A stretch of DNA of 64,000 nucleotides from Advenella mandrilli (GTDB taxonomy: Bacteria; Pseudomonadota; Gammaproteobacteria; Burkholderiales; Burkholderiaceae_B): NCBI RefSeq assembly GCF_016595155.1, contig NZ_JAENGP010000005.1, positions 150,457-214,456 on the forward strand. The letters run 5' to 3'. A program made the translations under genes and the position numbers. Within the stretch, counting starts at the first letter, position 1. Each line of letters starts with the position of its first letter. The notes below the pieces were generated by a model. The model made no database searches and was not told the DNA's origin. It saw only the letters and a list, made by a program, of their open reading frames with translations. This document shows positions 38,286-56,265 of the stretch, piece after piece.

Positions 38286-40376
38286 TCACAACCGAATATA
38301 CGTCACCTCAAACGCCTTACAAGCCCGGTGCTGCTGCAGGCGGTTGGCAAACGAGAAGACGTCGTTCATTTCATAGTGCTGGAAGATGTCCAGGCCGCGA
38401 TCAAGCGATATCTTCCAGCCGTGGTCGGTGACAATGTGGCGGGCGTGCATGGTTCCTGGAGTGTCGAAAGTCCAGGTGAAGTCGATTCCCGTGGTGGCAG
38501 CGCTGGCCTGGATTTTTTCGAAGTGTTCCCGTTGCTGTTCACCTTTGAACTCGTCTTCGACAGTAACCAAGTGGACAGACACTTCGTCGTCAGGGGCTTT
38601 GAGCTTGACTACGGTTTCCAGCAGCTCCATTAGGTTGCGTATCTGGTAAAACAGCCGGATGTACGGGTCGGTGATCGTCAGGTTCGTGGCGCCTTTGAGG
38701 TAGGGGCCAATCAGTTTGTCGTAGGAAATTCCTTTCTGGTTTTCCTCGAAGCTCAGGTGCTGCTCCTTGAGTTCCGGTGTTGCTGTGGCGATGTTCTGGA
38801 ACGCACTAAGGTCAGATCCGTCTGCCGCCGCAGCGTGATTAGTGGTGCTACCTGTGCCCTCGTCCGAAATGCTGTCACCCACTTCAGGTTTTGCGGTACC
38901 TGCATCAGCCTTTTGGTATAGCGACGGGTATTCCCGTTCTTCCAGGGTAGTGACCGCATATACATTACCTGCTGCATCGGTATACGTAAATCGTACAGGC
39001 GGGTAGGTGGGGTCGATGCGCATTGTGTGGTCTTTGACCCGTTTTCGGCCTTCAATGGCAAAGCGCAGCAGTTCTTCTATTTCTTCGCGGCTTGCGTCGC
39101 CGTGCGGGTACAGAATCTTCATCAGCCCGGAGAAGGTCTTATGTATGCCGTCTCGGTCGCGGGTGGAGATGTCTGACGATAAGGTGAAGTGCTCCTGGTA
39201 GCGGTGCGATTCATCTTTGTTGCGCTGGTCGCGCAGGATCTCGGCGAGATAATCCACTACAAAGCCATACCCGCTGGAGAACATCTCGCTGCGGATGACA
39301 TCCACTTCCCAGCCTGGTATGTAGAAATGGATACGATCCAAGAAGGCAGAGTCGCAGAATTTCTCGGACAGGTCGCAGAACAGGTGAGAGTGGCGTAGCA
39401 TCCACGGTACGGTGTGTTGGGTGTTGCCCACGAAGGCCATGGAGGCTTCTGCGCCCAAGGTTTCGACCCCACGCGAGAAGGATTTGTTGGCCATGTAGTT
39501 CTTCAGGATGTCTACCAAGGCCTTGTCTACACGCTTTTGCTTGCCGGCGAATTCGTCAAAGGCGACGCAGTCCCAGTAGCCCACCAGGCCGAGTTTGCCT
39601 GTGGAATTATTCACAAACAGCTTTGGAACAGTGACCTCACCACCTGAAATCAACATGCCGTGCGGCGAAAACTCTGAATAGATGTGAGATTTCCCGGTGC
39701 CCTTGGGGCCGAGCTCAATCACGTTGTAGTTGCGTTCGCAGAAGGGGATTAGGCGCACAAGTTGGGTCAACTTACTGCGGCGGCTGAAGAGTTCGGGGTT
39801 GAAGCCCACGCTCTGTATCAGCAGGTCTATCCATTCATCGGTGCTGAACTGACGCCTGGCGTGTGCATAACCGTCAAAATCGAAGTGGGACAGTTGAATG
39901 GGCTTTAGTGAAGAAAGCAGCCAGGGGCAGGCGTTCTTGTCTTCTGTGGCCATATATTCAAGATCGGCGATGCACCAGACACCGCCCACCAACAGCTTGG
40001 GGTGGGTTTTGATGGTGCTGGGATTCACCAATACCTTCTTGATTCCCAGGTTGGAAAACTCGGCTTCATACACGTCGTCTTTGTCGTTCAGCGAGACACT
40101 GATCTTGTCGATGACCTTGTATCGGCCTTTTTCGCGGATGTTGGAACGAACCAGCCCGGCTTCGTTACGGTGTACATAGTGTTGAGCCAGAATTTGCTTG
40201 ACGGTTTCAATGCCGGTCTGAATGCTGGCTTCGTCGCTGGTGGCGCAGTATTGCCCCAGCAGGTATTCGAGAACATACGACGGCACGATGGCATTGCCCT
40301 TGACTGTCTTCACAAGGTCCTTGCGGACCACCAAGCCGGGGAAATGTTCGTTAATTTTCGTGTCCAGTGCGTTCAT
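38286..40376 (-). CDS. brxL: BREX protein BrxL (Lon-like ATPase)
   Basis: A 696-residue BrxL. The central AAA+ module has Walker A ELGPKGTGKSHIYSEF near residue 225 and a Walker B-like DCVAFDEFAG near 270. The N-terminal domain (FPGLVVRKDLVKTVKGNAIVPSYVLEYLLGQYC) is the BrxL start. The C-terminal ~170 residues form a separate alpha/beta domain after a low-complexity linker (~505-545). BrxL is needed for phage exclusion in type 1 BREX and binds DNA as a ring. It is the last gene of the operon, 14 bases after pglZ, and faces radC. Confidence 0.93.
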   Translation of the reverse strand: MNALDTKINEHFPGLVVRKDLVKTVKGNAIVPSYVLEYLLGQYCATSDEASIQTGIETVKQILAQHYVHRNEAGLVRSNIREKGRYKVIDKISVSLNDKDDVYEAEFSNLGIKKVLVNPSTIKTHPKLLVGGVWCIADLEYMATEDKNACPWLLSSLKPIQLSHFDFDGYAHARRQFSTDEWIDLLIQSVGFNPELFSRRSKLTQLVRLIPFCERNYNVIELGPKGTGKSHIYSEFSPHGMLISGGEVTVPKLFVNNSTGKLGLVGYWDCVAFDEFAGKQKRVDKALVDILKNYMANKSFSRGVETLGAEASMAFVGNTQHTVPWMLRHSHLFCDLSEKFCDSAFLDRIHFYIPGWEVDVIRSEMFSSGYGFVVDYLAEILRDQRNKDESHRYQEHFTLSSDISTRDRDGIHKTFSGLMKILYPHGDASREEIEELLRFAIEGRKRVKDHTMRIDPTYPPVRFTYTDAAGNVYAVTTLEEREYPSLYQKADAGTAKPEVGDSISDEGTGSTTNHAAAADGSDLSAFQNIATATPELKEQHLSFEENQKGISYDKLIGPYLKGATNLTITDPYIRLFYQIRNLMELLETVVKLKAPDDEVSVHLVTVEDEFKGEQQREHFEKIQASAATTGIDFTWTFDTPGTMHARHIVTDHGWKISLDRGLDIFQHYEMNDVFSFANRLQQHRACKAFEVTYIRL

Positions 40377-40390
40377 CGTATGCCCTTGCT

Positions 40391-42898
40391 TCAGAAATCA
40401 AAATCGCTGGTAAACGCGCGTCGAATCGTATAACGCAGCGATTTATACGTTGTCGTGTGCGTGGTGCCTGCGTATTGCTCTTCCAGTCTCAGGTTCACTT
40501 CTTGGCCATTGGCTTGGTCGGCCTGACGGGTCAGCACAAAGCGTACAGAGACTTCGCGTTCACGCGGGTTGTCGGAGTCCAGATCAAAATGCACCTCATG
40601 GCTGTCGGAAATCAGTTCGCCGTCATCGGTGTAGATGCCCGCTTGCAATATCCGTGGCTGGGTCTTGTCAGTCACAGGTGTGGTCTGGAAGAACGTCACG
40701 GCCAGTTGCCCCGAGGTGATAACGGAACTCGCGCCGCGCAGAATATCCACTTCCACCAAGACCGTGTCGCTCTGGCGCTTTTTGTGAATCTTCAGCACCG
40801 GAATGACCACTTCTTGCAGGGTGGCACCACCATGAACGAAGCGGCTGCCGGAGCCTTGTAGACGCAGGCGATTGATCGACTTTGGGATTTGTACTTCGAT
40901 CTCACCCTGCAGGCCAAGCTGTGATGGGAAAAAAGTGTGTACGCTGGGGTGGGGAGACAGGCCTTTGCCGAGCAGGAAGCGTCGGTTTCGGAACCGTACT
41001 TTGTCACTTGTCACATCAGCAGCAAGAAAATCGCTCTCGGCGAGTTCGCGGTTCTGGTAAATGAAGCCGTGGTCGGCAGTCACTAAAATATTGCTGGCGT
41101 TCGCTGCCGTCAGCTTCTTCACCAGTTGCACGATATCAGCCAAGGTCTCTTCAGCTGCGTCGAAGGCCAGGCCTTCGGACTGGAGCTTGTCGCCAGTGTG
41201 ATCAATACGGTTGTGAGACAGGTACAGGACACGATTGGCTTTCAGGACTTCACGGCTTTCTTCACGGTTCAACTGCATGAAATCTTCCGCTTTCATGGCC
41301 TGGCCGTGCCCACCAAGCGCCTGCGACAGTATCTTGTTCCGGTTGATAGTGCCTTGGGAACTGACGCCATCAACCAGTACGCCCGCTTGGTCGTTATCGG
41401 TGATTTCCAGTTTCTTGTGCGGCAGCAGAGCGGCCATGCCTAGCTGGGTGTAGCTGGGCAGCATAGCCAGTGCAGGCTGCAGATCAGCGCCATAGCGGTC
41501 CTCGCGTCGAATCAGGCTCAGTAGTTCTTCACCAATTTCATAGCGCATGGCATCGGACACAATCACGCAGACGCGTGTGTCCTTATCCAGAAAGGGCTGC
41601 ACCCAGTGTTTGAAAAAATCATCCTGGCGGCGAACGGGCAGAGCTTCCCAGGCCTTGGCGCCATCAACGCAGGCCTGAAAGCGGTCGCCCAGCTTCAGCA
41701 GGAAGTTGTTGGTGTAGAGGTTTTCTACACGGTCGGACAATGGCTCCATCAGCGAATTCTGGCCTGACTTGCGAATGTGGTAAATGAACTTGCGATAGTG
41801 GCGGTCCGTCAAATACCAGGTACGACTGTAGCGCTGCACGCCATCGGCGATACTGGACATCTCCACACGAGCATCGGCTAGGGTTTGGGTGAACTGGGCG
41901 GCGATATCCAAGGCTTCGTACAGGTGCTTGAATTCCCCATACCAATGGCTTTGGCGCCGTTGGCGCACCCACTGCGACACCTCGCCGGCGGCGACGGTTT
42001 GCCCAGCTACGGCGCGCACCAGGTCGCTGATGATTTTTTGATCGATCAGGCGGAAGTAATCCAGTTCCATCAGCGTGCGGTAGTCGCGCTTGCCAAGATC
42101 CTGTTCAATGCCCAGTACCTGTGCGCACTCATGCGACAGCGTTTCGAACGCTTGCGCAGAAAGGCGGCTGTTCTTCCACCGTTTAAGAAACACCAGGGCG
42201 TCGCCATTCAGTTTGATGGTGCCCTCTGTCCCCATTGCATAGCAGGACTTGAACAACTCAACGGCGAAGTCGCGCAGGCTTGGGTGCTCGGAATGGTAAG
42301 CAAAATGCCGGCTCATCTGCTCCCATAGGTAAGTATCCAGTTTGCATCGTGTGATCAGTCTGAATTTCTCAGCGCTGCCTTCTGCGAGTTCCTGAAGCAG
42401 TTGTTCCAGCACTGCATCGAGGCGAGCATCGCTTTCCGCACAGACGGCCAACATCTTGTTGCGGATCTGATTCGCTGTGTCCTGCTTCTGTAGAGAATCT
42501 TTCAGCTTCTCCCGGCGTTTAGCAGCTTGGAAGAACTCGTTATGGCTTTGCACCAGGTTGATGAATTCGGGGTCAGGGTTCAGCTCTAGTTCAGACAGCC
42601 AGATGGCGTTCTGGTCAGTGCGGAACTCCGCATGCGCCAGCATCACATCCAGCAGCCAGTTATCCAGTTCGGCGGGCGGGGGGCCGTCGTGATACAGCAG
42701 GAATTTTCTTTCGGGTTCGCTGCGCAGAATTCGGTGCTTTACGCCGAACTCGTTATTGGCCAGCTCTACTGGCGTAACATCAGCCAGCGACAGCGACTCG
42801 AAATCAGCACGAAACTCGTGGTTGCTGTCATACCAGAACACAATACGGTGTTTGGTGAAGAGGTTGCTCAGCGCCTGGGTGATTCTGGGGTTGCTCAT
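40391..42898 (-). CDS. pglZ: BREX type 1 alkaline-phosphatase-like protein PglZ
   Basis: An 835-residue PglZ. The alkaline-phosphatase-superfamily metal sites are visible: VCVIVSDAMRYEIGEELL near residue 455, LYLSHNRIDHTGD near 560, and NILVTADHGFIYQ near 610. The N terminus (ALSNLFTKHRIVFWYDSNHEF) is typical. PglZ is the signature BREX protein; a phosphodiesterase/nuclease activity has been described for the family, but its target is unclear. It follows the AlbA-type gene by two bases and precedes brxL. Confidence 0.95.
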   Translation of the reverse strand: MSNPRITQALSNLFTKHRIVFWYDSNHEFRADFESLSLADVTPVELANNEFGVKHRILRSEPERKFLLYHDGPPPAELDNWLLDVMLAHAEFRTDQNAIWLSELELNPDPEFINLVQSHNEFFQAAKRREKLKDSLQKQDTANQIRNKMLAVCAESDARLDAVLEQLLQELAEGSAEKFRLITRCKLDTYLWEQMSRHFAYHSEHPSLRDFAVELFKSCYAMGTEGTIKLNGDALVFLKRWKNSRLSAQAFETLSHECAQVLGIEQDLGKRDYRTLMELDYFRLIDQKIISDLVRAVAGQTVAAGEVSQWVRQRRQSHWYGEFKHLYEALDIAAQFTQTLADARVEMSSIADGVQRYSRTWYLTDRHYRKFIYHIRKSGQNSLMEPLSDRVENLYTNNFLLKLGDRFQACVDGAKAWEALPVRRQDDFFKHWVQPFLDKDTRVCVIVSDAMRYEIGEELLSLIRREDRYGADLQPALAMLPSYTQLGMAALLPHKKLEITDNDQAGVLVDGVSSQGTINRNKILSQALGGHGQAMKAEDFMQLNREESREVLKANRVLYLSHNRIDHTGDKLQSEGLAFDAAEETLADIVQLVKKLTAANASNILVTADHGFIYQNRELAESDFLAADVTSDKVRFRNRRFLLGKGLSPHPSVHTFFPSQLGLQGEIEVQIPKSINRLRLQGSGSRFVHGGATLQEVVIPVLKIHKKRQSDTVLVEVDILRGASSVITSGQLAVTFFQTTPVTDKTQPRILQAGIYTDDGELISDSHEVHFDLDSDNPREREVSVRFVLTRQADQANGQEVNLRLEEQYAGTTHTTTYKSLRYTIRRAFTSDFDF

Positions 42899-42900
42899 GG

Positions 42901-44421
42901 TCAGTCCCCCTTCATCTCTGCTACAAGCGCCCGGCCTTGAGGGGTCAGGCGATACTGCTGCAGGCGACTATTGGGTTTCTCTGGTAGGGTCATTTCAATG
43001 AATTGTTGTTCCAGTAGGGATTTGATCTGTCGGTGCAGGGTGCCTGAAACTGTTTTCTGGCCCAGCATTTGTGCAAGTTGTGCCTTTCCGGCGGGTTGCT
43101 CAATGAGCAGTAGAACGACTCTAGCCGCGAGTGCTGACTCTAGCCGCGACTCTAGCCGCGACTCTAGCCGCGACTCTAGCCGCGACTCTAGCCGCGACTC
43201 TGACTCTACCCCGTTTGTTGTGTCATCGCCCGATTCCTTCGGATGGCCTGTTGTGACCGCCGTCTCGGCTGTCATGGGGTGTGCGAAATACACAGTGAAG
43301 CGTAAGTGCAGGCCGATTTCCTCAATGCTGGGCTCAGGCAGCCCTTGTTCTTGGGCTTCCCGGAAAATACGGCTGACACCGCTGCCCCATTGCTCGATCA
43401 GCCTCAGTTCTCGAAATACCCGTGCAATAACGCGGTTGCGCAGGTTGGACACCCCACGCTTCATCGCCTCCACAGTCATGCCTGGAACGAGGATGCCAGG
43501 GTTTTCGATCTCGATCCGGTCGTCAAAAAAGGCCACGCGTATGGGAGCCCCTTGATGCGAGTAGTCTGCGTGGACCAGCGCGTTGACGATGGCTTCCCGT
43601 AGGATAAGCAGGGGGATACTCCAGACATCTTTGCGCTGAACGCCCGAAAAGTCTGCGGCACGCATAGCGTGTTTTTTCAGGAAATCCATAATCTCCTCGA
43701 CGCACGAAGGCAAGTGAGAATGGATTTCCGTATGGTCGAAAATGCGTGCTTTGTCTGTTCCGACGAAACGGCCGCACTGCACCCAGGCATCTGGAAAATA
43801 TTGCTCCCGATTCTTCCCAAAAAGCAGAATCGCTCCTTTAGTGGGCACCAAGCGACCCTGTTCCCGTACCAGCAGCCGCAAGGTCAATAGCGCTTCTTCT
43901 GTGAGGGTATGTTCTGGCCCGAACATACGCTGTGCTGCATCAATGTTCAGATCATTGATACTTAACGCCGGCATCGGCTGTTCATCAAAAGCCACACCGC
44001 TTGTAGAACGCCTTAGTTCGGCAATGAGTTCGGGGCTGGCCTGACGGTTGCTAGAGCCCAGGCGCACATACACGCCTTTTTCATGGCCTTCATTTTTCAG
44101 GTAGTGGGGCCGTGAGCTACTGGGAAAGGTTTCAACCACCAAGACGCTTTTGTCTTCATGGGTCACGATTTCTACATTCGGAACCAGATGCGGGCTGATG
44201 GAATCAGCAATCAGATTGCAAAGGCGTTCTTCATCGTCCAAAGGGCGTTCCACACCCACCACTTTACGGTCATCATCAATGCCGATCAAGAGCTGGCCGC
44301 CAGCGCTGTTGGCAAAAGCCACCAGGGTCTTGAGAATATTCCGCGGGGAAGACAGATCACGCTTGAACTCCAGCGTTTTTCCTTCTGCGGCGGCGAGCAG
44401 TTGCGTGATGGGTGGATTCAT
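42901..44421 (-). CDS. AlbA/Schlafen-type ATP-binding protein inserted in the BREX operon
   Basis: A 506-residue protein. Residues 10-140: AlbA_2 domain (EGKTLEFKRDLSSPRNILKTLVAFANSAGG, then GIDDDRKVVGV). Residues ~260-350: GHKL-like ATPase portion (REAIVNALVHADYSHQG, IEIENPGILVPG). A low-complexity linker of five SRLE repeats (~418-440) leads to a C-terminal winged helix (AQLAQMLGQKTVSGTLHRQIKSLL). One base separates it from pglX-C and two from pglZ, so it is embedded in the operon. It is not a core BREX gene; a regulator or accessory defence protein is inferred. The gene is encoded on the same strand as BREX. Confidence 0.8.
   Translation of the reverse strand: MNPPITQLLAAAEGKTLEFKRDLSSPRNILKTLVAFANSAGGQLLIGIDDDRKVVGVERPLDDEERLCNLIADSISPHLVPNVEIVTHEDKSVLVVETFPSSSRPHYLKNEGHEKGVYVRLGSSNRQASPELIAELRRSTSGVAFDEQPMPALSINDLNIDAAQRMFGPEHTLTEEALLTLRLLVREQGRLVPTKGAILLFGKNREQYFPDAWVQCGRFVGTDKARIFDHTEIHSHLPSCVEEIMDFLKKHAMRAADFSGVQRKDVWSIPLLILREAIVNALVHADYSHQGAPIRVAFFDDRIEIENPGILVPGMTVEAMKRGVSNLRNRVIARVFRELRLIEQWGSGVSRIFREAQEQGLPEPSIEEIGLHLRFTVYFAHPMTAETAVTTGHPKESGDDTTNGVESESRLESRLESRLESRLESRLESALAARVVLLLIEQPAGKAQLAQMLGQKTVSGTLHRQIKSLLEQQFIEMTLPEKPNSRLQQYRLTPQGRALVAEMKGD
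43136..43195. repeat. Five 12-bp tandem repeats encoding SRLE
   Basis: Five perfect copies of GACTCTAGCCGC in the AlbA-type gene, with a sixth detached copy at 43117-43128. Each 12-base unit encodes four residues (SRLE), so copy-number change keeps frame and alters linker length. Not a CRISPR: there are no spacers. Confidence 0.95.
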
Positions 44422-44422
44422 T

Positions 44423-46204
44423 TCAATCGTCCTTGGCTTCCAGGCCGGGGATCTTCTTCAGCGCAGCGCCAAATTTCGGGTAGTTGGCTTTCACCCCGTC
44501 ATCCAGGTCAATTTCTAGCTGTTGGGTAGCCAGAGGGTAGAGGGTATCCCGTTCGTAGGCGTCTACCTCGGCAATCATCTTGCTGATCTTTTCGATTTCT
44601 TTCAGAGCCTTGGTTTTCTCGCCCTGGCTGGCCGATGCGCTGATACCCAGTGCTTCCAGGTGATTCTTGCGAGCCAACAGCTTGGCGCGGAATTCACGCA
44701 GGTAATCGTTCAGTACCACGCTGACGGTGTCTGGCCGGTAGCGGTGCATATAGATCAAGGCATTAAAGCTACCCTTGGCGCTGGAGAACAGCCAGTAGAT
44801 AGGGCGTTTCTTATAGCGCTTCAGATGATCGGTATAGAACTCGCTTAGGAAGTAATCGCGCAAGCTGTAATTACGTTTGCGCTTGACGTTCAAGGCTTCC
44901 TCAATAAAGCGCAGGTTTTCCTCGTAGTGTTCCTCGCCAAACGTCATTCGCAGGAAACGACGGAAGCGTTCGGTAATGTCGTCGGCGAACCAGTCACCGT
45001 CCAGCATGGGGATGACGTTGTCTTTATCAGGCATGTAGGTGGGCTCAGGCACCTGCGCCAGGTAGTCGGCCAGTGTTTCACCCTGATTCGCCAGAATCAG
45101 ACCGGGTTTGTCCAGGCTGTAGCGCCCGAACATGCAGCCGACTGCATAGGAAATGAATTCCCGCATGGTGTCGGCCAATAGCAGGGCTTCCAGTTCCTCT
45201 TCTGTTTTGTCACCACCGTAGCGATAGTGTGGGTTGCAGGTGAGGGTAATTTCTTTCAGAGGGACTTCGGGAGTGAGTTCGTCTTGCAGGCCGTAGGCTT
45301 CAATGAAGATGCGGTTGTTTTCTTCTTCCAGGCGCTGCATTTCTAGTGAAACGGAACGCCAGTGAGCGCGGAGGGACTGATAGCAAGCGTTGAGCTTGAC
45401 CTGGCGATGATTGGGGGGCAGCAAAGGATTTCCAGCAAAATCCCATGATTGCTCATAGCTATTCCAGTCCAGTACCGAAAAATTGATTAGTTGTTTTGTA
45501 TGTTTCTTTATTGAATCATTCTTTGGGAAAATGACTGGTATTCCTCCCACAGAGCCCGCACCAAAATTCAGGGTTGGGTTGATGGCGTAAAGTGACTCTC
45601 TCGTTACCCGCGAGTTCAGCATTCCAAGTAAGCAGTCGGTTCGATCCTTGGGAAACATTGTGGATCCGGCTGAGTCAAAAATCGCTCCGTAATCTGTTAG
45701 CCGAAAGCTTGAAATGCTAGATGTTAGGGCGTTCCACGTTATTCCATCTGAGAAATACCTATCTTCGCTCCGAATCTCTTTCGTATAGCTTCCGCCACCG
45801 TATGCAGATATGACGGCTGCTTTGATCTCTTCCCCATCATTTTTCCAGTTGATGACAAAATCTTTGTTGCCGTACCATTTTCTAAAATTTCCCCCTTTAT
45901 TCAACGGAAACCATTTTTTTCCCGAGTGCATTGCTGAGGAGCGGCACTTGCTATTTACCTGGATATCCGAGAAATTAATTTCTGACCAAACTCTTATAAA
46001 ACGTGAGTTATCTGTGGTTGCTAAACCTTTTCTTGGGCCTGCGACTGATTGGAGCGATTCTCCTTTTATGAAGGCATTGCGAAATGTAGCGCTCATCCAG
46101 TAAGCGATCGGGCTCCCTGGTATTTTTTTGAATTCCTTAGTCGAGGCACGAAAGAAATTATTACCCATGTCCCGTTCATAACTACTGCTCTGCTTCTCAT
46201 TCAT
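44423..46204 (-). CDS. pglX: PglX C-terminal half (target-recognition part), separate gene
   Basis: A 593-residue protein equal to the C-terminal half of BREX type 1 PglX. It opens with a short leader and then NFFRASTKEFKKIPGSPIAYW, a segment normally found mid-PglX just after the methylase domain. Residues ~40-250 are the sequence-variable target-recognition region; the remainder is conserved (RYSLDKPGLILANQGET, RFLRMTFGEEHYEENLRFIEEAL, RKRNYSLRDYFLSEFYTDHLKRYKKRPIYWLFSS). There is no methylase motif. The ATG at 46204 lies two bases after the RT-nitrilase stop. DNA of the recognition region is visibly more AT-rich than the rest. The two halves probably assemble into one methyltransferase. 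Confidence 0.88.
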   Translation of the reverse strand: MNEKQSSSYERDMGNNFFRASTKEFKKIPGSPIAYWMSATFRNAFIKGESLQSVAGPRKGLATTDNSRFIRVWSEINFSDIQVNSKCRSSAMHSGKKWFPLNKGGNFRKWYGNKDFVINWKNDGEEIKAAVISAYGGGSYTKEIRSEDRYFSDGITWNALTSSISSFRLTDYGAIFDSAGSTMFPKDRTDCLLGMLNSRVTRESLYAINPTLNFGAGSVGGIPVIFPKNDSIKKHTKQLINFSVLDWNSYEQSWDFAGNPLLPPNHRQVKLNACYQSLRAHWRSVSLEMQRLEEENNRIFIEAYGLQDELTPEVPLKEITLTCNPHYRYGGDKTEEELEALLLADTMREFISYAVGCMFGRYSLDKPGLILANQGETLADYLAQVPEPTYMPDKDNVIPMLDGDWFADDITERFRRFLRMTFGEEHYEENLRFIEEALNVKRKRNYSLRDYFLSEFYTDHLKRYKKRPIYWLFSSAKGSFNALIYMHRYRPDTVSVVLNDYLREFRAKLLARKNHLEALGISASASQGEKTKALKEIEKISKMIAEVDAYERDTLYPLATQQLEIDLDDGVKANYPKFGAALKKIPGLEAKDD

Positions 46205-46206
46205 TA

Positions 46207-49200
46207 TTACTCTCCCAGGGGCAATACTTTGCGGCCAAATTCAGTTTTGAATCCATCTGGTACAGGTTTGAAGGAATCGTTAGGCGAGCGAAAGCTACTC
46301 TGAAACTTCCGTAAAGCCTGTACATCGATCTCACCTGTGATGCAATAGTCATGATTACCGCCCTTAACGCGTAGAAGATCGCGCTTCCACCGATCTTTAT
46401 ATGGTGCACGGATTCGGCTGTCACCAAAGCGGCGATTATTGCATTGGATGATGTAAGCGTGAATATCCAGCGCCGCAGACTCTACTAGCGCGTTAAAGGT
46501 ATCAGTGTCGCTATTCCATTCAGGAATAAACAAGGCATCAATCTTGCCCCTTAACTCTGCACGATATCGAATGTTGGTCAGTTCACTGCAGATAAGCATG
46601 GCGAAGTGAAAATCACCATGCTGAATGACCGGTGGTATGTCGTTTTTCCACGTTTTAGCGGGCTTTAGGCAGACACCAGCGAGTCGAAATAGCTCCCGCT
46701 CTTCGTGAAAAGCAGGTTTTTGCTTGTCTTGCCGATAAAGCATTAGTGAAGGAAAACCAAGGCCATCGTGGGTGAGTGATGCCCAAGTCTGGTTGTGCAC
46801 GTGTTTTTTTCCTGAACGTAGATACTCGACCCCGGAGATCAGCGATATGCGCCGACCGTTGAGCTTACCTGCGATTCGTAAAAACCATTTAGGAGGTATC
46901 GCCAACTCTGGCAGGATCACATACCCGGCATGATCAGGCCTGGAAATCAGTTCGTTGATCAGACGATTGAGGCGCTGGTAGCGACGCCTGCTTGCTGGAT
47001 CTGGCTTGCCCATGGCAGCAGCCGTAAAGTTGCTGTCACTGGTTTCCCAGCTCGAAACGGCGATGGTCTGCCTTGCTTTGGGTTCCCCATCAGGTATTAT
47101 CAGAGTGCGCTGATGTTTGTCCCATTGTGGCATTTTATCTGCATGTAGCTCAAAGCCGCGCAGTGCATAAATAACCTTGTCCAGCCTCGGCAGGCTCGTG
47201 TTGCTGAAGGGTTCAGGCGCAATGAGGTATAGCTCGTTCAGAGTAAACGGCCGCGTGGCGAAGTAAAGGCCTGGCGGTATACCGTTGATCAGCTTCGGCT
47301 TGAACCATTCAGCCAATATTTCGATGCCTTCGGAAATCTGAGTTGCATCGTTAATCAGCCACTTGACACCCGACAGGCTCTTACGAAAAGGGATGCTTCG
47401 TTGCCAGGCCAACTCTCTGGGTAACCCAGCAAAGCGCAAAGGAATATGGGCGAGATCGTGGCTGAACAGGTGGGCGTGTAGTTTCTGTAAATCTCGAATT
47501 GACTTCGAGACTCTGTTTTTCAGCCAAGTGATTCGGAGATGTTCGGAAAGCCGTTGCCAATGACTCTCCATGTTTTGTTGCCAGTCTTGTTGCGCTTTTC
47601 TACCCAGTCGTGGGGGTAAGGCGCTGAGAATGGCTTCTGAAATTACGTTGGCGTGATGGGTTTTCCAGAGGCTGATCCCGTGGCGAAATCCTACATCAGG
47701 TTTTTCTTTAGCCTTTATTCTCAGCGAACACTGTTCACATACACTTTGGATCGTCTTATCCAACTTTTCTATGATTTTAGCCAGATGCTGAAAATCCTCG
47801 CATGCTGTAGCCATTCGGATAATGCGTGGTAGGTACTGGGCTAGTTCAAAAAATTTTACCGGGGTCAACAGGTGATCTATTACCGCTTCGAAAAAAGCGT
47901 GGCGGTGTGCTTGCCACGCTTCTGGCAACAGGTCACGTTCAAAGGCTTCGTAATCTCGCAGATTCAGAGCAAAGCCCGCTCTGTGCAGCGTCAGACAGTC
48001 TGTCTTACGCAAATTGTCAGCGTGTTCGCCAGAATGGTTAGTAGCTTTTAATAAGTCAGTAGCGATAGATCCTGGGTTGTCCGGCAGGTCTGGTAACGAG
48101 CGCCATTCACTGGCACGCTGGTTGATTTGTTCGCTGATGGCATTGATCAGCACTGTACCCGGTGTGCCTCCGAGAATGAACAGCTTGTTTTTGTTGTTTT
48201 CGAACGCAATATGGCTGTCAGCCAAGTAGCTCCGATGGAAAACGATGCTCCCGTTTTCCTGTTTGAGTAGATCGTTGCCACCATCGCGATTAATAATCCA
48301 TTCCCAGAAGTGCGCGCTGCTGCTGAGTTTGCTGGTGTTGTGCATCACTAGCAGAATGTCATCAACGTAACGACCATAGTAAAGAGGTACAACCTGCTGC
48401 TCTATGAATTGGTCGAGTTCGATCAGCGCAGCATTCGCGACTATTGCCGACGCGGGCAGTCCTACGGGTAGCCCACTTTTTAGTGGGGTTTTATCAGACC
48501 AAGCTTGAAGCGCCTTAATGAATAATTTGTTGAGCTGGGCGAGGGGGGCCGCGTCGAGCTTTACACCTGCTTTCTGGTGAAACTCATCGTCCAACATAAA
48601 AGCAGGGTTGAGCTTGTGATAGAAGCTGCTGACATCCGCAGTAAGCGCAATGACTTCTTTCCCTTGTGACAAGGCGCGTCGCATAGCATCAATGGCACCG
48701 TCGCGCCAATCACGAAAAGGCTTCAGGTAAGGCTTGAAAGAACCCAACGCCATATCATTGAAGTCGTCATGGCGAGTGCGGCGTAAGCGGCTTCCGTAGA
48801 CATTTTCGCCCAGGGTTCTGTCGAACAAGTGACCGACTTTCATAATCCACAGAGCTGAGAATACGTGAAAATCGATGCTGCAGTCCGCCATTAAGCGAAA
48901 TTCCGCAGTAGGCCGATCACCGTTTGAGATGTGATTGGACCACTCGGCATCCTGAGAAGCAAAGATTAACGTTGTTTCGTGGGTGTGGTCCTCTGCAGGG
49001 GAATGTTTCTTACTACCTTCCGTCGTTTTTGGCTTTTTTGGAAACGAAATGGACTTTGGTGCGAGAGTCCATGTTCCGAGAAATTTTGGATCAGTAAGCC
49101 ATTCCTGATCATCGCTGTTGATGCACTCGCGTAGATTCTCCAGATTTTCTAGGAGATTGTCCTCGTAGTCAGCCATGGCGAGTAGTGGCGGGTTAGTCGA

Positions 49201-49260
49201 GTAGTACAGGTCGACTTTTGCCTTGCGCCAAGCGAGGATGAGATCTTCAAGGGTGATCAT
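46207..49260 (-). CDS. Reverse transcriptase-nitrilase fusion (DRT type 1 / UG1-like) nested in split pglX
   Basis: A 1017-residue protein. The N-terminal ~420 residues form a reverse transcriptase: motif A EVIALTADVSSFYHKLNP near 205, LKSGLPVGLPASAIVANAAL near 265, and the catalytic YVDD in YYGRYVDDILLVM near 297. Residues ~740-1000 form a nitrilase/C-N hydrolase domain with the full triad: Glu in YVILPELAIP near 783, Lys in QDKQKPAFHEE near 848, Cys in FAMLICSELTN near 888. A helical linker joins them. RT plus nitrilase defines defence-associated RT type 1 (UG1). The start overlaps the pglX-N stop as ATGA; the stop is two bases before pglX-C. Its position inside pglX is the unusual feature. 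Confidence 0.9.
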   Translation of the reverse strand: MITLEDLILAWRKAKVDLYYSTNPPLLAMADYEDNLLENLENLRECINSDDQEWLTDPKFLGTWTLAPKSISFPKKPKTTEGSKKHSPAEDHTHETTLIFASQDAEWSNHISNGDRPTAEFRLMADCSIDFHVFSALWIMKVGHLFDRTLGENVYGSRLRRTRHDDFNDMALGSFKPYLKPFRDWRDGAIDAMRRALSQGKEVIALTADVSSFYHKLNPAFMLDDEFHQKAGVKLDAAPLAQLNKLFIKALQAWSDKTPLKSGLPVGLPASAIVANAALIELDQFIEQQVVPLYYGRYVDDILLVMHNTSKLSSSAHFWEWIINRDGGNDLLKQENGSIVFHRSYLADSHIAFENNKNKLFILGGTPGTVLINAISEQINQRASEWRSLPDLPDNPGSIATDLLKATNHSGEHADNLRKTDCLTLHRAGFALNLRDYEAFERDLLPEAWQAHRHAFFEAVIDHLLTPVKFFELAQYLPRIIRMATACEDFQHLAKIIEKLDKTIQSVCEQCSLRIKAKEKPDVGFRHGISLWKTHHANVISEAILSALPPRLGRKAQQDWQQNMESHWQRLSEHLRITWLKNRVSKSIRDLQKLHAHLFSHDLAHIPLRFAGLPRELAWQRSIPFRKSLSGVKWLINDATQISEGIEILAEWFKPKLINGIPPGLYFATRPFTLNELYLIAPEPFSNTSLPRLDKVIYALRGFELHADKMPQWDKHQRTLIIPDGEPKARQTIAVSSWETSDSNFTAAAMGKPDPASRRRYQRLNRLINELISRPDHAGYVILPELAIPPKWFLRIAGKLNGRRISLISGVEYLRSGKKHVHNQTWASLTHDGLGFPSLMLYRQDKQKPAFHEERELFRLAGVCLKPAKTWKNDIPPVIQHGDFHFAMLICSELTNIRYRAELRGKIDALFIPEWNSDTDTFNALVESAALDIHAYIIQCNNRRFGDSRIRAPYKDRWKRDLLRVKGGNHDYCITGEIDVQALRKFQSSFRSPNDSFKPVPDGFKTEFGRKVLPLGE

Positions 49261-51062
49261 TTGCCAATCCTACGTGCTGCTTGGATAATTTCCAACGCGC
49301 GGGGGCCTTGCTGATCTGCTCCACGGAAGTCGGACAGGCGAACATATCCACCCTTGTAGTCCGGTTTGTATGCGTTCTCTAGCGTGAAAGTACAAATTGG
49401 CACCGTAGCACCGTCAAAGCCTGAGTATTCAAGTTGTATAAGGGAGGTGATGGTCTTCTGTTCGATAAGGAAGGTGCGAAGCTTTTCGTAGCTAGATATG
49501 AACATCCATACGAACGGTGTCATGAAGCCGATATGCCCTTTTGGAACAGCTAGTTCGAGGTTGCGAATGATGAATGCGGCGAAAAGGTCAGTTTTTACCG
49601 ATTCGTAGTTTTGCTTGAGCCAGCTGCTTAAGCGTGGATTCATTCCTTTGCCGCCCATGTAGGGTGGGTTTGCCACTACGATGGCGTAACGTGGGCTGAG
49701 GTAATCCGCCATGCGCAGCACAGTCAACACACGCTGGTGGGTTTCTGCCAAGAACAGCCTGCCACCCATGTCCTTGGTTTCAAGAGTCGCCAGAATATCA
49801 GCTACGTTGCTGGCTTTGGGCGTAATCAGCGAGCCGAAGTTATCGGCCTCATCGAACTGCCGTAGCGTCTTGCGCAGTTCCGGCGTGAACAGGTCTTTGC
49901 CCACTGCGATCATGTATTCGGTCAATACATCATCGTCGAATGCGATCTTTTCCAGCACGCAGATATTGGGGCGTATGCCCTTGCTGAAAAACCGCCGTTG
50001 GCGTTCGCGGGCTTTCATGGTCAGGGCGAAGGCGGCAAGCTCACCGGCGCGTTCATCCAGTTCAATGCCGTACAGGTTGTGGGTCAGGATGTTTTCCGGA
50101 ATCTCTGACGGGTCGTAGCCCTCTTCCTCGTAGATGTCGTAGAGCAGGTCGAAGGCATAGGTCAGCATATGGCCGGAACCGCAGGCCGGGTCGCAGACTT
50201 TGATCTCTTCCGGCCCGTTTATCTTCAGGAAGTCGGTGTCGGGTTGTTCCGGTGGAATGTAGTATTCCATCTGTTCGGCCAGACGCGATTGGGGCCGGTT
50301 CAGCAGCCACAGGCGCCCCAGCGAGTTCTGCACCAAATAACGCACGATCCAGTGGGGGGTGAAGAGCTGGGTGGCGGCGGGAATATTACTGGGAGTGATC
50401 TTCTGGTTCTTTTTCAGGCCGTCAAAGATCTGGTCTTTCTTTTCAGAAATATAGAACTGGTACAGCCAGCCAATCACTTCCACGCTTTCGCAGGCGTCTG
50501 GTGTCATGGCCTCGCGGGTGTAGGCCAGGATGGAATTCTCCGACAGCAGGTCATCGGGGAGCAGCAGTTCGGTGTAGTCGTCGATGTGCTGGAACAGGAA
50601 AGGCATGTTCCGGTGCCAGTCGCGGCAGGCGGCGACCACCAGCAGGCGGTAGGCTTCGCCTTGTGAGTCGCGGCTGGGGGTGCGGCCCGACAGCAAGCCT
50701 TGTATTTCCTGGCGAACAGCGGCAGGCACCATGTCTTCGTCGATATGGCCCATCTTGGCTTCGGCCAGAATCTCGGGCTGAAATTGGCCTTCGGTGGGTG
50801 ACACCACGCCTACCCGCGTGTAGCGGTTCACATCCATGAAGCGCAGGGCGCAGAAACGGTTGAACCAGATGTAGGCCACGCGTTCAATCACGTATTCCCG
50901 GCTATTGTTGGAAATGGCTTTTTCCAATGCCTTTACCGCTTCAGCGCTTTCACGGCGAGCCAGGCTGTCTGTGGTCAGCACCGTATCGAGCTTCAAATCC
51001 ACTTGTTCGATCAAACTGCTACGGGCGAACTGAGCGAACTTCTTTAATTTTGAGGTGTCCAT
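49257..51062 (-). CDS. pglX: PglX N-terminal half (adenine methyltransferase domain), separate gene
   Basis: A 601-residue protein, the N-terminal half of BREX PglX. The N6-adenine methylase motifs are intact: SAM-binding VCDPACGSGHMLTYAFDLLYD near residue 292 and catalytic VVANPPYMGGKGM near 463. The segment NLYGIELDERAGELAAFAL and the RGADQQGPRALEI ending occur in whole PglX just before the recognition domain. It stops at RRIGK and overlaps the RT gene start by four bases. 601 plus 593 residues equals a normal PglX of about 1200, so nothing seems lost. PglX methylates host DNA to mark self in type 1 BREX. Confidence 0.9.
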   Translation of the reverse strand: MDTSKLKKFAQFARSSLIEQVDLKLDTVLTTDSLARRESAEAVKALEKAISNNSREYVIERVAYIWFNRFCALRFMDVNRYTRVGVVSPTEGQFQPEILAEAKMGHIDEDMVPAAVRQEIQGLLSGRTPSRDSQGEAYRLLVVAACRDWHRNMPFLFQHIDDYTELLLPDDLLSENSILAYTREAMTPDACESVEVIGWLYQFYISEKKDQIFDGLKKNQKITPSNIPAATQLFTPHWIVRYLVQNSLGRLWLLNRPQSRLAEQMEYYIPPEQPDTDFLKINGPEEIKVCDPACGSGHMLTYAFDLLYDIYEEEGYDPSEIPENILTHNLYGIELDERAGELAAFALTMKARERQRRFFSKGIRPNICVLEKIAFDDDVLTEYMIAVGKDLFTPELRKTLRQFDEADNFGSLITPKASNVADILATLETKDMGGRLFLAETHQRVLTVLRMADYLSPRYAIVVANPPYMGGKGMNPRLSSWLKQNYESVKTDLFAAFIIRNLELAVPKGHIGFMTPFVWMFISSYEKLRTFLIEQKTITSLIQLEYSGFDGATVPICTFTLENAYKPDYKGGYVRLSDFRGADQQGPRALEIIQAARRIGK

Positions 51063-51074
51063 CCTTCCTGCCCT

Positions 51075-54000
51075 TTAAATCTGTACTTTGTGACCTTGCT
51101 GCACTTCGCTGAGCAAGGCTTTGCGTAAGGCATCTAGGTAATTATCGATATCGGTTTCTGTTGCCAGCCACGCCTTGGGGTAGTCGGGTTTTAAACTGCG
51201 GGCCGGTACGATTTTTGGGGCGGCAGGCGGTACGGGCGTCGGCGCAGACGGCTGTGGTACATCTTGAATGCGGTTGCTGTTGTCTGAGCCCGCGCTGACA
51301 GGCTCGGGGGTACGGGTTTGCTGCGCCATAGCTGCGGTCTTTGTCAGCAGCGTGGCATAACCCTGGTCTTCGAAGTGGTGCATGCGGTCGTTGATGGCCG
51401 CGATCAGCGTTGTCTGTTCAACGTACTGTTGCAAGTCCTGGAAGGGTTTGTCGAGTTCTTCCTGCCTCGGTGCTGGCAAGGCTTGGTATTCTTCCATGCC
51501 TTGCAGTCGGGATTGCAAACGGCTCAGTTTTGCAATCGCCTGTTCCGTGGCCTGCTTTACTGCAGTAGTGACTTCTGCACGTAAGGTGTCGACCAGCCCC
51601 TTGAGCTGCTGCATGCGGTTGCTGCGGTAGCACTTGGGGTCAGCCAGAATGGTCTGGATCTGTTTTGGCGTGTCGCTTTCAAGGTAGTGAAAGTTCGATT
51701 CCTGTGACTGCAACAGGTTTCGAGCTTCCAGGTAGATCTCTTTCTGTGATCCCCCCATAAAACTGAGGATGGGGTCCAGGATGTCTTCTTTCAGGGCCAG
51801 CAGCTTGTCTTCTTGCTGGCGAAGTTCGGTCAGCCACCATGTGTAAGGCTTGCCGGCCAAGTCCTGGAAGGTCTGTTGTATCGGTTGCAGGTTTTCCAGG
51901 AATGGAAAACGGTCTGCCTGTGAAAGCAGCGGTTTGATTTTTTCGTTTATCAGGCGCTGAGCATTGGCCGAGGCTTCCTTACCCAGGGCTTTGGCTTCGC
52001 TGCTGCTGGGTGGGCCAAAGAACTCCTCATGGAATTCTTTCAGCGCCCGAACTTGAGACGCAGTGAACTCAATCTGTGGCTCTAACACCAAATGCCCGTG
52101 GGCGCTGGTGTTGCGCAGGGCTTGTTCCAGGGCGTCGGTTTCCAGCAGGTTGCTGTCGCTGCGTGCTTCCAGTTTGCCGCGGGCCCAAAGGTTGGCCGTC
52201 AGGCACAAGATCGCGGCGTAGTACCAGCCGTAAGGCTTGCGCTCGAACCGTTCCAGCACGCTCTTGAGTGTGGTGCGAACGCCTTCGCGCTGGTTGCCGT
52301 GAATAAAGGCCAGAATTTCCTGCTCGGATTCGGGCAGGGTAGCGGCATCATTGCCAATCAGGCCATCAGTGGCCAGTTCCAGGCAGCGGCGGATATCGTT
52401 TTCGGTGTAAACGACGCCGCGCAGCATGGAAAGGTTGGGGTACACCCGGGTAACCAATTCATGGAAGCCGCGGGTGATGCGTGTGGCAGGTTCATTCGCC
52501 GTGACTTCGACATCGGCCCCGGCAATCATCAGCCTGGCGTTGCCGATCAGCTCGTGCACCAGCAGGCGGATGCGCGCTTCGCGCTGCTGATTCTGGTGGC
52601 CTTTGTCATACAGAATGCGTTTGGTGGTTTCATTCTGGGTAATGGAAATGTTCTGCCGGATGTAGCGTTCAGTTCTCTTGTACATCAGCAGTTCGCGCAT
52701 CAACTGTTCGTCAGGCCGCATCACGACAAACAGCGCTTCCATCTGGTAGGCCGAAGCAGTGCGCAGCATCTGCTCGCTTTCCACGTGCTCATGAAACGGG
52801 CTGATCACGTGAATGCTCAGTTCGTGGTCGCGGCCGTGCAGGCGGTCGTCCAGACGCCGGGCGAAGGAGTAATCCTGCCCCTGGTTGGCTGAAGTACCCA
52901 GGCTCACACGGATCTTGCGCTGCCCCAGCACCTGATCAAACACCATTTTCTGAAGCTCTTCGGCAACGTCGGTGGTATCGACATCGGTGTTTTTGATCTC
53001 CTGCTCGATGTCTTTTTCTTCGTCGCTCAGGAACTCAAACAGTTCGCCGTTACGCTGGATGTAAGTCTGGCTTTCCAGCAGGTTAAGCGCTTCTTCCACG
53101 CGGCGCTTCAGGCCGGGCAGGTCTTGTTCAAAACCTTCCAGCATCAATACGCACAGGTTGCGTATCGAGGGCTTGAACTCCTTTACATACTTGACCAGGA
53201 ACAGCGCTTTCAGCAGGCGTACTGCGAATTCATCTCCCAGGTGTTGCTCTGCCTGCAGGATGGCGCGTTGAATGTTGGATTTCAGCGCCGTGCGGATGCC
53301 TTCGAACATTCGGTCAAATGTAGCCAACTGACCCACATCGGTGTCGCGGATCTGTATGACGACTTGCTGGAATACGCCCAACATGGATCGTTCACCCACA
53401 GAGCTGTGCTTGCCTTCAAAGGCGTTCTGTTTCGATAGGTTCTGTATGGCTGCCTGAAACAGTGAAAACTGATACGGAATGAAGGGGTAGCTATTGACGA
53501 AGTGATCCTGGTCGCGGAAGTTCTGATAGTGCTGACTGCCATCCGTGAAATCGAACAGGGTTTTGAAATTGTTCGATTGCGCATGGTAGATCTGCGCGAG
53601 TTGGGTGGCGCCGTCTTCCGTCTTCGCCAGCAGGCGCTTTTGGATCACTTCGGCAACGTCCTGGGACGTTAGCTTCATGCGATTGGCAAAACGCGCCTGA
53701 ATCTTGGTGAAGTCGTTCTCCTGGCGCTTGTTCATTTCGCCCAGAACGGTGCTCATGTCCTCTTGCGCCGTGACAATGATCCAAGCACGGCCACGGCATT
53801 TGGTCGCCAGGCTTTCTGCAATGGTCTGCAGATTGGTCATCAGCTTGGTGTTCTCGGCAATGTATTGCCCCACTTCATCGACAAAGAAGTTCAGGCGAAA
53901 TTCCGGCCCTTGTTGGTCTACCCAGCGCCGCACCTGCTCGGCGAAGTCTTCAATGGACACCCGATACTGGGCACGGTATTTGTCTAGAATGCCCAATGCC

Positions 54001-54647
54001 TGGTCTGCCTCGGTTGCGGTGGCCTGAGCATAGGCTTGCGCAATGTTGCGATTTTCGAGCAGGGCCTGTTCGCGCCCGATGTGCCAGGGTTTGCCGGCGA
54101 CCGCCTCGAATGCCTGTTTGAAGGCTTCGTATTGGCCTCGACTATCAAGGTCGCGCTCGAACTGGGCAATGTGACCCTGATTGCCGTAGTAGCCACACAT
54201 CTCATCGAAGACCTTCACGAACACTGATAGCAGGGCATCAATTTCAGTCTTACTGATGATGGCGGCTTTCTGGTCGATGTTGAACAGAATGCTCTTTGAT
54301 GGAACGGCTACGGCCTTTTTCAGGTCGGCGCGTAGCATCTCGTTGCTACCGCATTTGGGCAAGAACAGATCCAGCGTGTTGGCCCCGTCTATTGAGCGGT
54401 TTTCCAGCACCAGGGCCAGCATTTTCAGCAAGTGCGACTTACCAGAGCCGAAGAAGCCGGATATCCACACCCCGTTCGCATGGGTGTAGTTGTTGTAGGC
54501 CTCAAGAAAAGCCTCCAAGCGCTTTTCCACCTCGTTGGTGAGGACATATTCCTCGATTTCGAGGCGCAGGCTGGCTTCATCGTCGGCCTTGATGACGCCT
54601 TCGATGGGGCGATCGACCGGTTTGCTGAAAATGGTTTTCAAATGCAT
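51075..54647 (-). CDS. brxC: BREX ATPase BrxC
   Basis: A 1190-residue BrxC. Walker A is in VWISGFFGSGKSHLLKML near residue 60; FRLNFFVDEVGQYI near 260 is Walker B-like. The IIVTAQEDMSTVLGEM segment near 300 is also characteristic. The C-terminal third is long and helical with a proline-rich linker (~1130-1165). BrxC is an essential P-loop ATPase of type 1 BREX. The ATG at 54647 has GAGGAAA upstream and matches the family start (HLKTIFSKPVDRPIEGVIKA); an ATG at 54665 overlapping the brxB stop is the alternative. It is followed by pglX-N after 12 bases. Confidence 0.94.
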   Translation of the reverse strand: MHLKTIFSKPVDRPIEGVIKADDEASLRLEIEEYVLTNEVEKRLEAFLEAYNNYTHANGVWISGFFGSGKSHLLKMLALVLENRSIDGANTLDLFLPKCGSNEMLRADLKKAVAVPSKSILFNIDQKAAIISKTEIDALLSVFVKVFDEMCGYYGNQGHIAQFERDLDSRGQYEAFKQAFEAVAGKPWHIGREQALLENRNIAQAYAQATATEADQALGILDKYRAQYRVSIEDFAEQVRRWVDQQGPEFRLNFFVDEVGQYIAENTKLMTNLQTIAESLATKCRGRAWIIVTAQEDMSTVLGEMNKRQENDFTKIQARFANRMKLTSQDVAEVIQKRLLAKTEDGATQLAQIYHAQSNNFKTLFDFTDGSQHYQNFRDQDHFVNSYPFIPYQFSLFQAAIQNLSKQNAFEGKHSSVGERSMLGVFQQVVIQIRDTDVGQLATFDRMFEGIRTALKSNIQRAILQAEQHLGDEFAVRLLKALFLVKYVKEFKPSIRNLCVLMLEGFEQDLPGLKRRVEEALNLLESQTYIQRNGELFEFLSDEEKDIEQEIKNTDVDTTDVAEELQKMVFDQVLGQRKIRVSLGTSANQGQDYSFARRLDDRLHGRDHELSIHVISPFHEHVESEQMLRTASAYQMEALFVVMRPDEQLMRELLMYKRTERYIRQNISITQNETTKRILYDKGHQNQQREARIRLLVHELIGNARLMIAGADVEVTANEPATRITRGFHELVTRVYPNLSMLRGVVYTENDIRRCLELATDGLIGNDAATLPESEQEILAFIHGNQREGVRTTLKSVLERFERKPYGWYYAAILCLTANLWARGKLEARSDSNLLETDALEQALRNTSAHGHLVLEPQIEFTASQVRALKEFHEEFFGPPSSSEAKALGKEASANAQRLINEKIKPLLSQADRFPFLENLQPIQQTFQDLAGKPYTWWLTELRQQEDKLLALKEDILDPILSFMGGSQKEIYLEARNLLQSQESNFHYLESDTPKQIQTILADPKCYRSNRMQQLKGLVDTLRAEVTTAVKQATEQAIAKLSRLQSRLQGMEEYQALPAPRQEELDKPFQDLQQYVEQTTLIAAINDRMHHFEDQGYATLLTKTAAMAQQTRTPEPVSAGSDNSNRIQDVPQPSAPTPVPPAAPKIVPARSLKPDYPKAWLATETDIDNYLDALRKALLSEVQQGHKVQI

Positions 54648-54661
54648 GCCGCTTTCCTCGT

Positions 54662-55273
54662 TCATACTTCGAAGTGATAGATGTTGAAGGCCCGGTAGTA
54701 CTTGTCATCGTGCAGGCGTCCGAACAGATCCAGCGACGCGCCGGATATCTGCGACTGGGTATACACGCCGGGGAAGAACATGACAGTGGGCTTTTCTTTC
54801 GCTGTGCTTTGCAGGTTGTTCAGCACGTTGTGGGAACGAATGTAGGGGAAGACTTCGCCTACACCGGACAACAATAGGATGTCGAAAGTGTGCGTGGCCA
54901 ACTTCTGTGCAATGGCGGGCACCAGGTGGCTTTCAGGGTCCAGCACGCCCTGCAACAGCTCCTTGAGCTCGTCCTTAGTGACGGTAGGTTCTACTTCCAG
55001 TATTTGTTCCCAGATACCGCGTGTATGCAGAAGCTCGATGGCCAGGTCGTAAAGATTGATCTCCAGAACCTGAACACCCTTTTGCTCAAGATGCTGGGTC
55101 AGTTGCCTGCGTAGGCGGTCCATCGCCACCGCCTCTTCAGGCGGGTAGGGGCAGATGAAGAAGGGCACCTCATTACCCAACCCTTGCTTTTGCAGAAAGC
55201 GTTGCCCCGACATGACCGCACAAAGGTGGTCAAAGCGTTCTTTTATTGGACGGCGAGCGATGTCGTGAGGCAT
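54662..55273 (-). CDS. brxB: BREX protein BrxB (DUF1788)
   Basis: A 203-residue DUF1788 protein. Family segments: PFFICPYPPEEAVAMDRLRRQL near residue 37, LLLSGVGEVFPYIRSHNVLNNLQ near 134, and PTVMFFPGVYTQSQISGASLDLFGRL near 164. It ends with YYRAFNIYHFEV, as is usual. BrxB is a core type 1 BREX protein of unknown biochemical activity. It starts three bases after brxA, and its stop overlaps a possible brxC start. Confidence 0.94.
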   Translation of the reverse strand: MPHDIARRPIKERFDHLCAVMSGQRFLQKQGLGNEVPFFICPYPPEEAVAMDRLRRQLTQHLEQKGVQVLEINLYDLAIELLHTRGIWEQILEVEPTVTKDELKELLQGVLDPESHLVPAIAQKLATHTFDILLLSGVGEVFPYIRSHNVLNNLQSTAKEKPTVMFFPGVYTQSQISGASLDLFGRLHDDKYYRAFNIYHFEV

Positions 55274-55276
55274 GGG

Positions 55277-56088: not shown

Positions 56089-56265
56089 GGATGTTTAGCA
56101 GGCAGCGTGAACAGATAGGCAAGACAAAGTTATCCTGCATGATGATGTAATAATATCTTTGCTGCGGGTCGATGTCAAACGATATTTGCCGATTTAAGCC
56201 GAAATTGGCGACGTAAGATGCAATCACCAGGTGAGGGCGGCGGTTGTTGCTCCCATATCGCTATG
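56089..56265 (-). promoter_or_regulatory. Presumed promoter region of the BREX operon
   Basis: 177 bases between the HTH start and an inverted HNH gene fragment. Contains near-palindromic CCGATTTAAGCCGAAATTGG at 56189-56208 and AT-rich stretches that could provide -10/-35 boxes and an operator for the 64-residue HTH protein. No gene is visible. The promoter role is inferred from position. Confidence 0.4.

Follow-up and report, generated by a model that had tools for sequence, protein, structure and literature searches.

Why does a reverse transcriptase (RT) gene lie inside pglX, the methyltransferase gene of a type I bacteriophage exclusion (BREX) system? The question is raised by a 64,000-nucleotide stretch of Advenella mandrilli (NCBI RefSeq assembly GCF_016595155.1, contig NZ_JAENGP010000005.1, positions 150,457 to 214,456), hereafter called the window. 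Its minus strand carries a nine-gene operon (38286-55897) in the order brxA, brxB, brxC, pglX-N, RT-nitrilase, pglX-C, a Schlafen/AlbA_2-HATPase gene, pglZ and brxL. PADLOC matches placed all six type I BREX core genes (brxA, brxB, brxC, pglX, pglZ and brxL) at this one locus. Neighbouring genes overlap by 4 bases or are separated by 1-14 bases, and all nine open reading frames (ORFs) of the operon are uninterrupted. Type I BREX has the same six core genes in one operon, with PglX usually, though not by strict definition, a single chain; here PglX is encoded as two chains with another gene between them. On comparison with related loci we consider it probable, though well short of assured, that a type I BREX pglX cut before its hinge serves as a cargo slot, that the two pieces assemble as one methyltransferase, and that the passenger is a co-translated backup anti-phage effector.

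A preliminary description of this DNA had reported three ORFs of 601, 1017 and 593 amino acids, an S-adenosylmethionine (SAM) motif and NPPY in the first, an ATGA stop/start overlap at one joint, and a two-base spacing between RT and pglX-C at the other. Coordinates and lengths proved to be as claimed, both joints were seen in the DNA, and the SAM motif of pglX-N reads DPACGSGH. Alignment to full-length chains located the cut. Against seven full-length plasmid PglX proteins, the N half aligned from residue 1 to its own residue 557-597, and the C half met the same chains from their residue 592-606 through the end. With the two nearest of the seven, the N-half alignment ran from residue 1 to about 580, and that of the C half began at about 601 and reached the end. 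In the numbering of the Salmonella PglX structure 8c45, the N half aligned to 628 and the C half from 640; the available text of PMC11341690 places the hinge at 654-659 and the target recognition domain (TRD) at 662-849. Because the alignments end at 628 and resume at 640, ahead of that hinge, the cut is placed by sequence in a variable loop 15-25 residues before the PglX hinge. The two chains add up to 1194 residues (601 + 593), compared with 1148-1225 in 14 translated full-length relatives. Since the halves reach 628 and start again from 640 of 8c45, the split is, by alignment, exact at a domain boundary with no sizeable PglX segment lost, and the plasmid PglX alignments agree with what the preliminary description had claimed on this point.

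No second pglX was found in the genome, in answer to the possibility of an intact copy elsewhere; the only extra match scored 18.5 bits and lay on another contig. Direct or inverted repeats of at least 14 bases were absent from 46050-49420. A search for described RNA families in Rfam across 38000-57000, up to E 0.5, gave a single sub-threshold match, in pglZ, and none near the joints. The joints thus lack such repeats and RNA matches, in keeping with the earlier claim that neither insertion sequence (IS) marks nor direct repeats are present there. A group II intron, a retron or an IS insertion was rejected because neither repeats nor an RNA match were found.

We then examined what occupies the gap in relatives. 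Context was read at seven split loci (the window, L004, L037, L065, L091, L092 and L093), and all seven hold an occupant, or the remains of one, at the same joint. An intact RT fills the gap in three of them. L004, from a metagenome-assembled genome of Gammaproteobacteria (5-kb contig), has the order pglX-N/RT/pglX-C with 4-base overlaps at both joints; L037, also from Gammaproteobacteria, has the same order with a 4-base overlap between pglX-N and RT and a 2-base gap between RT and pglX-C. Their RTs are 67% (L004) and 63% (L037) identical to that of the window, and their PglX halves 39-42%. The search for genomes with these three neighbours, as proposed earlier, thus recovered the order twice, which rules out an assembly accident of one contig. 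The other four loci differ in content. In L065 (Escherichia coli ET896) the gap holds RT remains only, about 90 codons corresponding to residues about 921-1009 of the L037 RT. L091 carries a Schlafen/AlbA-HATPase gene, 60% identical to the window gene that follows pglX-C. L092 carries two genes, one for an AAA protein whose best PADLOC match is HEC-02A (118.5 bits) and one of 201 residues without a match, flanked by Schlafen remains: the start (residues 8-33) behind pglX-N and the end (346-480) before pglX-C. L093 contains HEC-02A and HEC-02B (343.6 and 209.9 bits), followed by a decayed RT end (residues 915-1017, 41% identity) directly before pglX-C. At least three kinds of occupant are seen; treating the AAA pair of L092 as separate, although HEC-02A is its best match too, makes four. 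The gap in pglX is therefore likely, judging from these gene contents, to be a cargo slot for exchangeable backup defences.

Two of these loci have further genes close by. In L093 a Bro-N domain gene (13005-13865) stands between brxC and pglX-N, and behind pglX-C of L037 lie two UvrD-like helicases and a GmrSD_N gene (1957-8469).

The occupant of the window was assigned by profile. Its best PADLOC match is RT_UG5-nitrilase, with 1023.1 bits over residues 2-1014, and the next best scores 153.6 bits. The preliminary description had labelled it UG1, or defence-associated RT (DRT) type 1; that identity was rejected, as Drt1a reaches only 85.4 bits. DRT type 1 has an RT with a similar C-terminal part, and its structure 9yfd matches residues 881-1005 of the window RT, but the profile scores place the window RT in another family. 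With the UG5-nitrilase RTs it shares both the profile and the C-terminal nitrilase, and it differs from them by lodging inside another gene. Class 5 RTs have been noted as nitrilase-linked in the available part of PMC8934634. Foldseek matches of an AlphaFold model were DRT4, UG15 and DRT2, with E values of 4e-4 to 1e-3, and gave no family assignment. Across the window RT and 120 listed relatives, D209, Y298, V299 and D300 of the RT and E785, K846 and C891 of the nitrilase are kept in 121 of 121 rows, and D301 in 120 of 121. We take E785, K846 and C891 to be the Glu-Lys-Cys triad of the nitrilase.

Relatives of this RT, for which 949 of 7994 scored candidates passed, also occur outside BREX. 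Among kin of 52-54% identity, L039 and L030 (E. coli) adjoin type I restriction genes together with a DUF1016 nuclease (recorded as "nuclease" in L030), L038 adjoins a DUF1016 nuclease, and L025 (Sinorhizobium meliloti) adjoins neither. Kin of about 30-36% identity stand in other settings (L026, L040, L042 and L043). None of the eight stretches around these relatives contained a PglX or BrxC match. No RT relative was detected among the phages searched or among the viral contigs searched. Twelve plasmid records carry one, five of them with at least 80% cover; of three of these that were opened, two have no BREX beside the RT and the third is an unannotated record. Distant RTs (34-45% identity) are present in 6 of 221 genomes of the family of G249, with context read in G249 only, and an RT of 49% identity (L008) sits on a 4.2-kb contig too short to show context. 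Two side observations concern the same family. DUF1016 (YhcG) nucleases stand next to the RT at L039 5354-11677 and L038 13133-14245, as does a gene annotated as a nuclease at L030 12379-16676; two of these three lie in type I restriction operons. In L041 (G414), a 326-residue ORF (9416-10396) is 68% identical to RT residues 749-1008, the nitrilase part only; it lies adjacent to AbiEi/AbiEii, without pglX, and is a relative that is either truncated or stands by itself.

Public data contain many half-length PglX chains, and these have fixed ends. For the C half, 7969 of 7998 scored candidates passed in a search confined to lengths of 326-1037 residues; 105 of the 120 matches listed are 570-615 residues long, and 85 carry the hinge motif at the same offset, 29. 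For the N half, 105 of the 120 matches listed, the window's own included, are 585-615 residues long, 86 of them exactly 601 or 602, and 82 of the 120 end in LEIIQAAxxxGK. One listed N cluster, to which one source gives the name Pseudomonas aeruginosa, represents 361 contigs. By eye, ten listed N/C cluster pairs have a longest contig of equal size (for example 4750728 and 545468), as do two RT-N pairs (15648 and 20969) and one RT-C pair (15648). Such coincidences hint indirectly at linkage, and they also suggest that the listed RT contigs do not carry most of the listed halves. PADLOC itself has half-length PglX models, which means that split halves are in its data.

The distribution of split forms was determined by pglX-C searches of 150, 398, 121 and 114 genomes, sets that partly overlap. 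Eighteen distinct genomes matched: 5 split, 12 intact, and 1 (G454) apparently cut by contig ends. A Rhodovulum locus (L058), with a pglX lacking its front beside a Tn3 transposase, was left uncounted. Six of the 121 sampled genomes of the window's family matched, 4 split and 2 intact; outside that family 1 of 11 classifiable genomes is split (L037). In trees, the splits group with intact PglX of different origins: Methylomonas and alphaproteobacteria for the window halves, Azotobacter for L037, and enterobacteria for E. coli ET896. Approximately unbiased (AU) tests rejected a single ancestral split. The four split N halves as one clade gave p 2.8e-8, and the window and L037 N halves together 1.3e-72. 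For the C halves, the three split ones as one clade gave p 7.2e-83, and those of the window and L037 8.0e-6; this test used 10 of the 120 listed C halves and left out the partial one of L004. The four splits of the window's family as one clade gave p 0.0025, and on that tree the state changed at least 7 times. The long row L051 was present in the N- and C-half tests and dropped from the family test, and exchange within pglX blurs gene trees. As a separate observation, a PDDEXK nuclease follows intact pglX in Methylomonas plasmids.

Comparison with L094, the nearest BREX relative read (BrxC 97%, BrxL 93% and PglZ 90% identical), gave the extent of a putatively exchanged region. L094 has an intact pglX of 1162 residues. 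DNA identity by blastn is 91.8% over 56203-49824 and 83.8% over 45373-38295, with an unmatched block in between. Over the last part of pglX-N and the opening 800 bases of pglX-C, identity is down to about 40-60%; it recovers from 45373. L091 and L092, which differ in cargo, are 87.6% identical up to about pglX-N residue 484, and identity is regained at about pglX-C residue 268. From these profiles we infer that one cassette was exchanged, running from the last part of the methyltransferase domain through the cargo to the TRD. The N-half ends of the window and L091 are alike (78-95%, residues 481-600) despite different cargo, consistent with a swap of cargo after pglX had been split. Because the splits do not form one clade and the pglX of L094 is intact, the slot appears to have been exchanged as a unit with its cargo and the recognition domain. 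In P0143 and P0189, both named Oligella urethralis, the PglX-C halves share their first 36 residues and then differ in their TRDs, as expected for specificity exchange.

In the explanation that we favour, a cargo slot in a pglX whose two pieces assemble, the hinge would tolerate a chain break, so that an N chain (methyltransferase) and a C chain (target recognition) meet as subunits in the manner of HsdM and HsdS. A single message would cover brxA and the genes after it, from a promoter-like site at 56178 that is a consensus match only; promoter-like sites show no excess over shuffles (6 found, 10.4 expected). On completing pglX-N, ribosomes would reinitiate at the cargo gene and again at pglX-C, and three proteins would be made together. 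Recombination in the conserved flanks would swap the block of pglX-N 3' end, cargo and TRD, bringing in a new effector along with a new specificity. During infection the RT-nitrilase would be a second line that works by itself, its translation tied to PglX through the overlapping starts and stops. The PglX C-terminal domain resembles type I specificity subunits, according to the available text of PMC11341690. HsdM and HsdS with an embedded PrrC likewise have separate methyltransferase and recognition chains with an effector gene within the locus. The window differs in that its partners are those of BREX and no hsdR was found among the nine operon genes; assembly of its chains is predicted.

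The cargo might instead be a guard, one that senses when PglX or BREX is blocked by an Ocr-like anti-restriction protein of a phage and then fires. By analogy, the gene for PrrC lies in a type IC locus, and inhibition of the restriction enzyme activates the protein (PMC12707154, available text), and a 2026 BREX survey proposes backup effectors that include PARIS-like modules countering Ocr (PMC12839542, available text). Effectors of these types have counterparts in the slot, namely its Schlafen-type and AAA occupants, and kin of the RT are found in type I restriction operons as well. Other kin have neither BREX nor restriction genes in the stretch read, so PglX sensing is not needed by the whole RT family, and we regard a guard as a possible but unlikely role. 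A broader form of this idea takes the PglX hinge as a natural, general docking slot in a two-chain methyltransferase, with the recognition half travelling by recombination alongside an exchangeable guard effector (RT-nitrilase, Schlafen-type, HEC-02 or another AAA) and the RT-nitrilase firing when a phage blocks PglX. If true, a change of specificity would also renew the fail-safe; we find this broader form doubtful.

The preliminary description had read the RT as a structural subunit between the PglX halves, a dedicated machine. Three loci do have the same order with near-identical joints, and all three RTs read inside pglX share one RT clade of 26 rows (Shimodaira-Hasegawa-like approximate likelihood ratio test 93, unstarred), with context read for 3 of the rows. 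However, the same joint also houses unrelated genes (Schlafen-type, AAA, HEC-02) or nothing but RT remains, and a truncated member of 68% identity stands outside BREX beside AbiE genes. Because of these other occupants and the RT kin outside BREX, a fixed partnership is less likely than a cargo slot and, in our estimate, very unlikely. That an insertion inactivated pglX and left BREX dead or dying, as the first half of E. coli ET896 annotated as frameshifted would suggest, is more improbable still, considering the nine open ORFs of the window, halves that keep their ends across many clusters, and split forms in 5 of 17 classifiable genomes.

Several points weigh against a cargo slot with assembling halves. 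The low identity of the TRD block could be due to diversifying selection, an alternative for part of the drop; all six pairs profiled, split-split or split-intact, show low identity through most of residues 1-280 of the C part, and this set includes no close intact-intact control pair. Context was read at seven split loci; at other half-length PglX genes the gap may be empty or differently filled, and candidate lengths were restricted. Split forms are uncommon elsewhere: besides L037, none of 4 other PglX matches in its family (114-genome search) is split, and besides the window, none of 6 classifiable matches in the 150- and 398-genome searches. L004 and L037 may share one split. The available text of PMC11341690 reports that the C-terminal domain of Salmonella PglX alone was not expressible, an argument against a C chain that folds by itself in that protein. 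AlphaFold models of pglX-C and the RT, with predicted local distance difference test scores of 64.6 and 61.2, respectively, are too weak for judging assembly.

We also inquired whether such an arrangement had been described. The literature searched, with the UG/Abi survey 10.1093/nar/gkac467 and PMC4337064 outside its scope, describes neither a pglX split by an RT nor a pglX cargo slot, and the earlier statement that no example is described stands within that scope. Two-piece pglX had been noted before: in the cyanobacterium Ca. Regnicoccus frigidus such genes were read as damage, and the available text of PMC9716671 mentions no cargo gene. The 2026 survey (PMC12839542, available text) proposes such a backup layer for BREX and names Schlafen and OLD-type modules among its effectors. 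Its effectors (GmrSD/BrxU, PARIS, Schlafen and OLD-ABC) include classes similar to those seen here, namely Schlafen with a histidine-kinase-like ATPase and AAA/OLD-type ATPases. The available text describes them as adjacent genes, as genes lying within core loci or as fused domains, in contrast to a slot inside a split pglX. Its main text contains no occurrence of split, reverse transcriptase or nitrilase.

Recognition and methylation have been described as functions of a single PglX chain, and a natural two-chain form would offer a system for probing how recognition, methylation and restriction are coupled, with specificity changeable by swapping one subunit. A slot in a core immune gene that retains the remains of past occupants would be a direct record of the trading of backup effectors, and the RT-nitrilase would join the list of such effectors. 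The space between half-length pglX genes would be a place for finding unknown anti-phage genes.

Coordinates of the operon genes, joints and motifs in the window.
Feature	Position	Strand	Remarks
brxA	55277..55897	minus	PADLOC
brxB	54662..55273	minus	PADLOC
brxC	51075..54665	minus	PADLOC
pglX-N (helical bundle and N6-adenine methyltransferase half)	49257..51062	minus	601 aa; PDLC02525, 827.6 bits, 1-578 of 607; Eco57I, N6_Mtase
Joint 1	49257..49260	minus	ATGA: pglX-N stop TGA within RT start; GGCAAATGATCACC
RT-nitrilase cargo gene (UG5-nitrilase)	46207..49260	minus	1017 aa; PDLC03780, 1023.1 bits
YVDD catalytic motif, RT residues 298-301	48358..48369	minus	alignment
Nitrilase cysteine C891	46588..46590	minus	alignment; E785 and K846 also invariant
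Joint 2	46205..46206	minus	RT stop TAA, two bases (TA), ATG of pglX-C; GAGAGTAATAATGAAT
pglX-C (hinge motif, TRD, spacer helices, C-terminal region)	44423..46204	minus	593 aa; PDLC02516, 708.9 bits, 11-591 of 593
Schlafen/AlbA_2 and HATPase_c_4 gene	42901..44421	minus	domain matches; 60% identical relative fills pglX slot in L091
pglZ	40391..42898	minus	PADLOC
brxL	38286..40376	minus	PADLOC
Block without blastn match to L094 (pglX-N 3' end, RT, TRD part of pglX-C)	45373..49824	minus	39-base island 46097-46135 excepted
Promoter-like site 5' of brxA	56150..56178	minus	11/12 matches, consensus match only

The flanks of the operon (36440-38107 and 56815-63416) contain a resolvase, RadC, an N6-methylase-like gene, an S24/IMS (UmuDC-like) pair, an rve integrase and a GmrSD_N gene, a setting that is defence-island-like. 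Farther away in the window (25677-30353) lies a gene for a 1558-residue protein with HAD-type hydrolase, DEAD/DEAH helicase and DUF559 domains.

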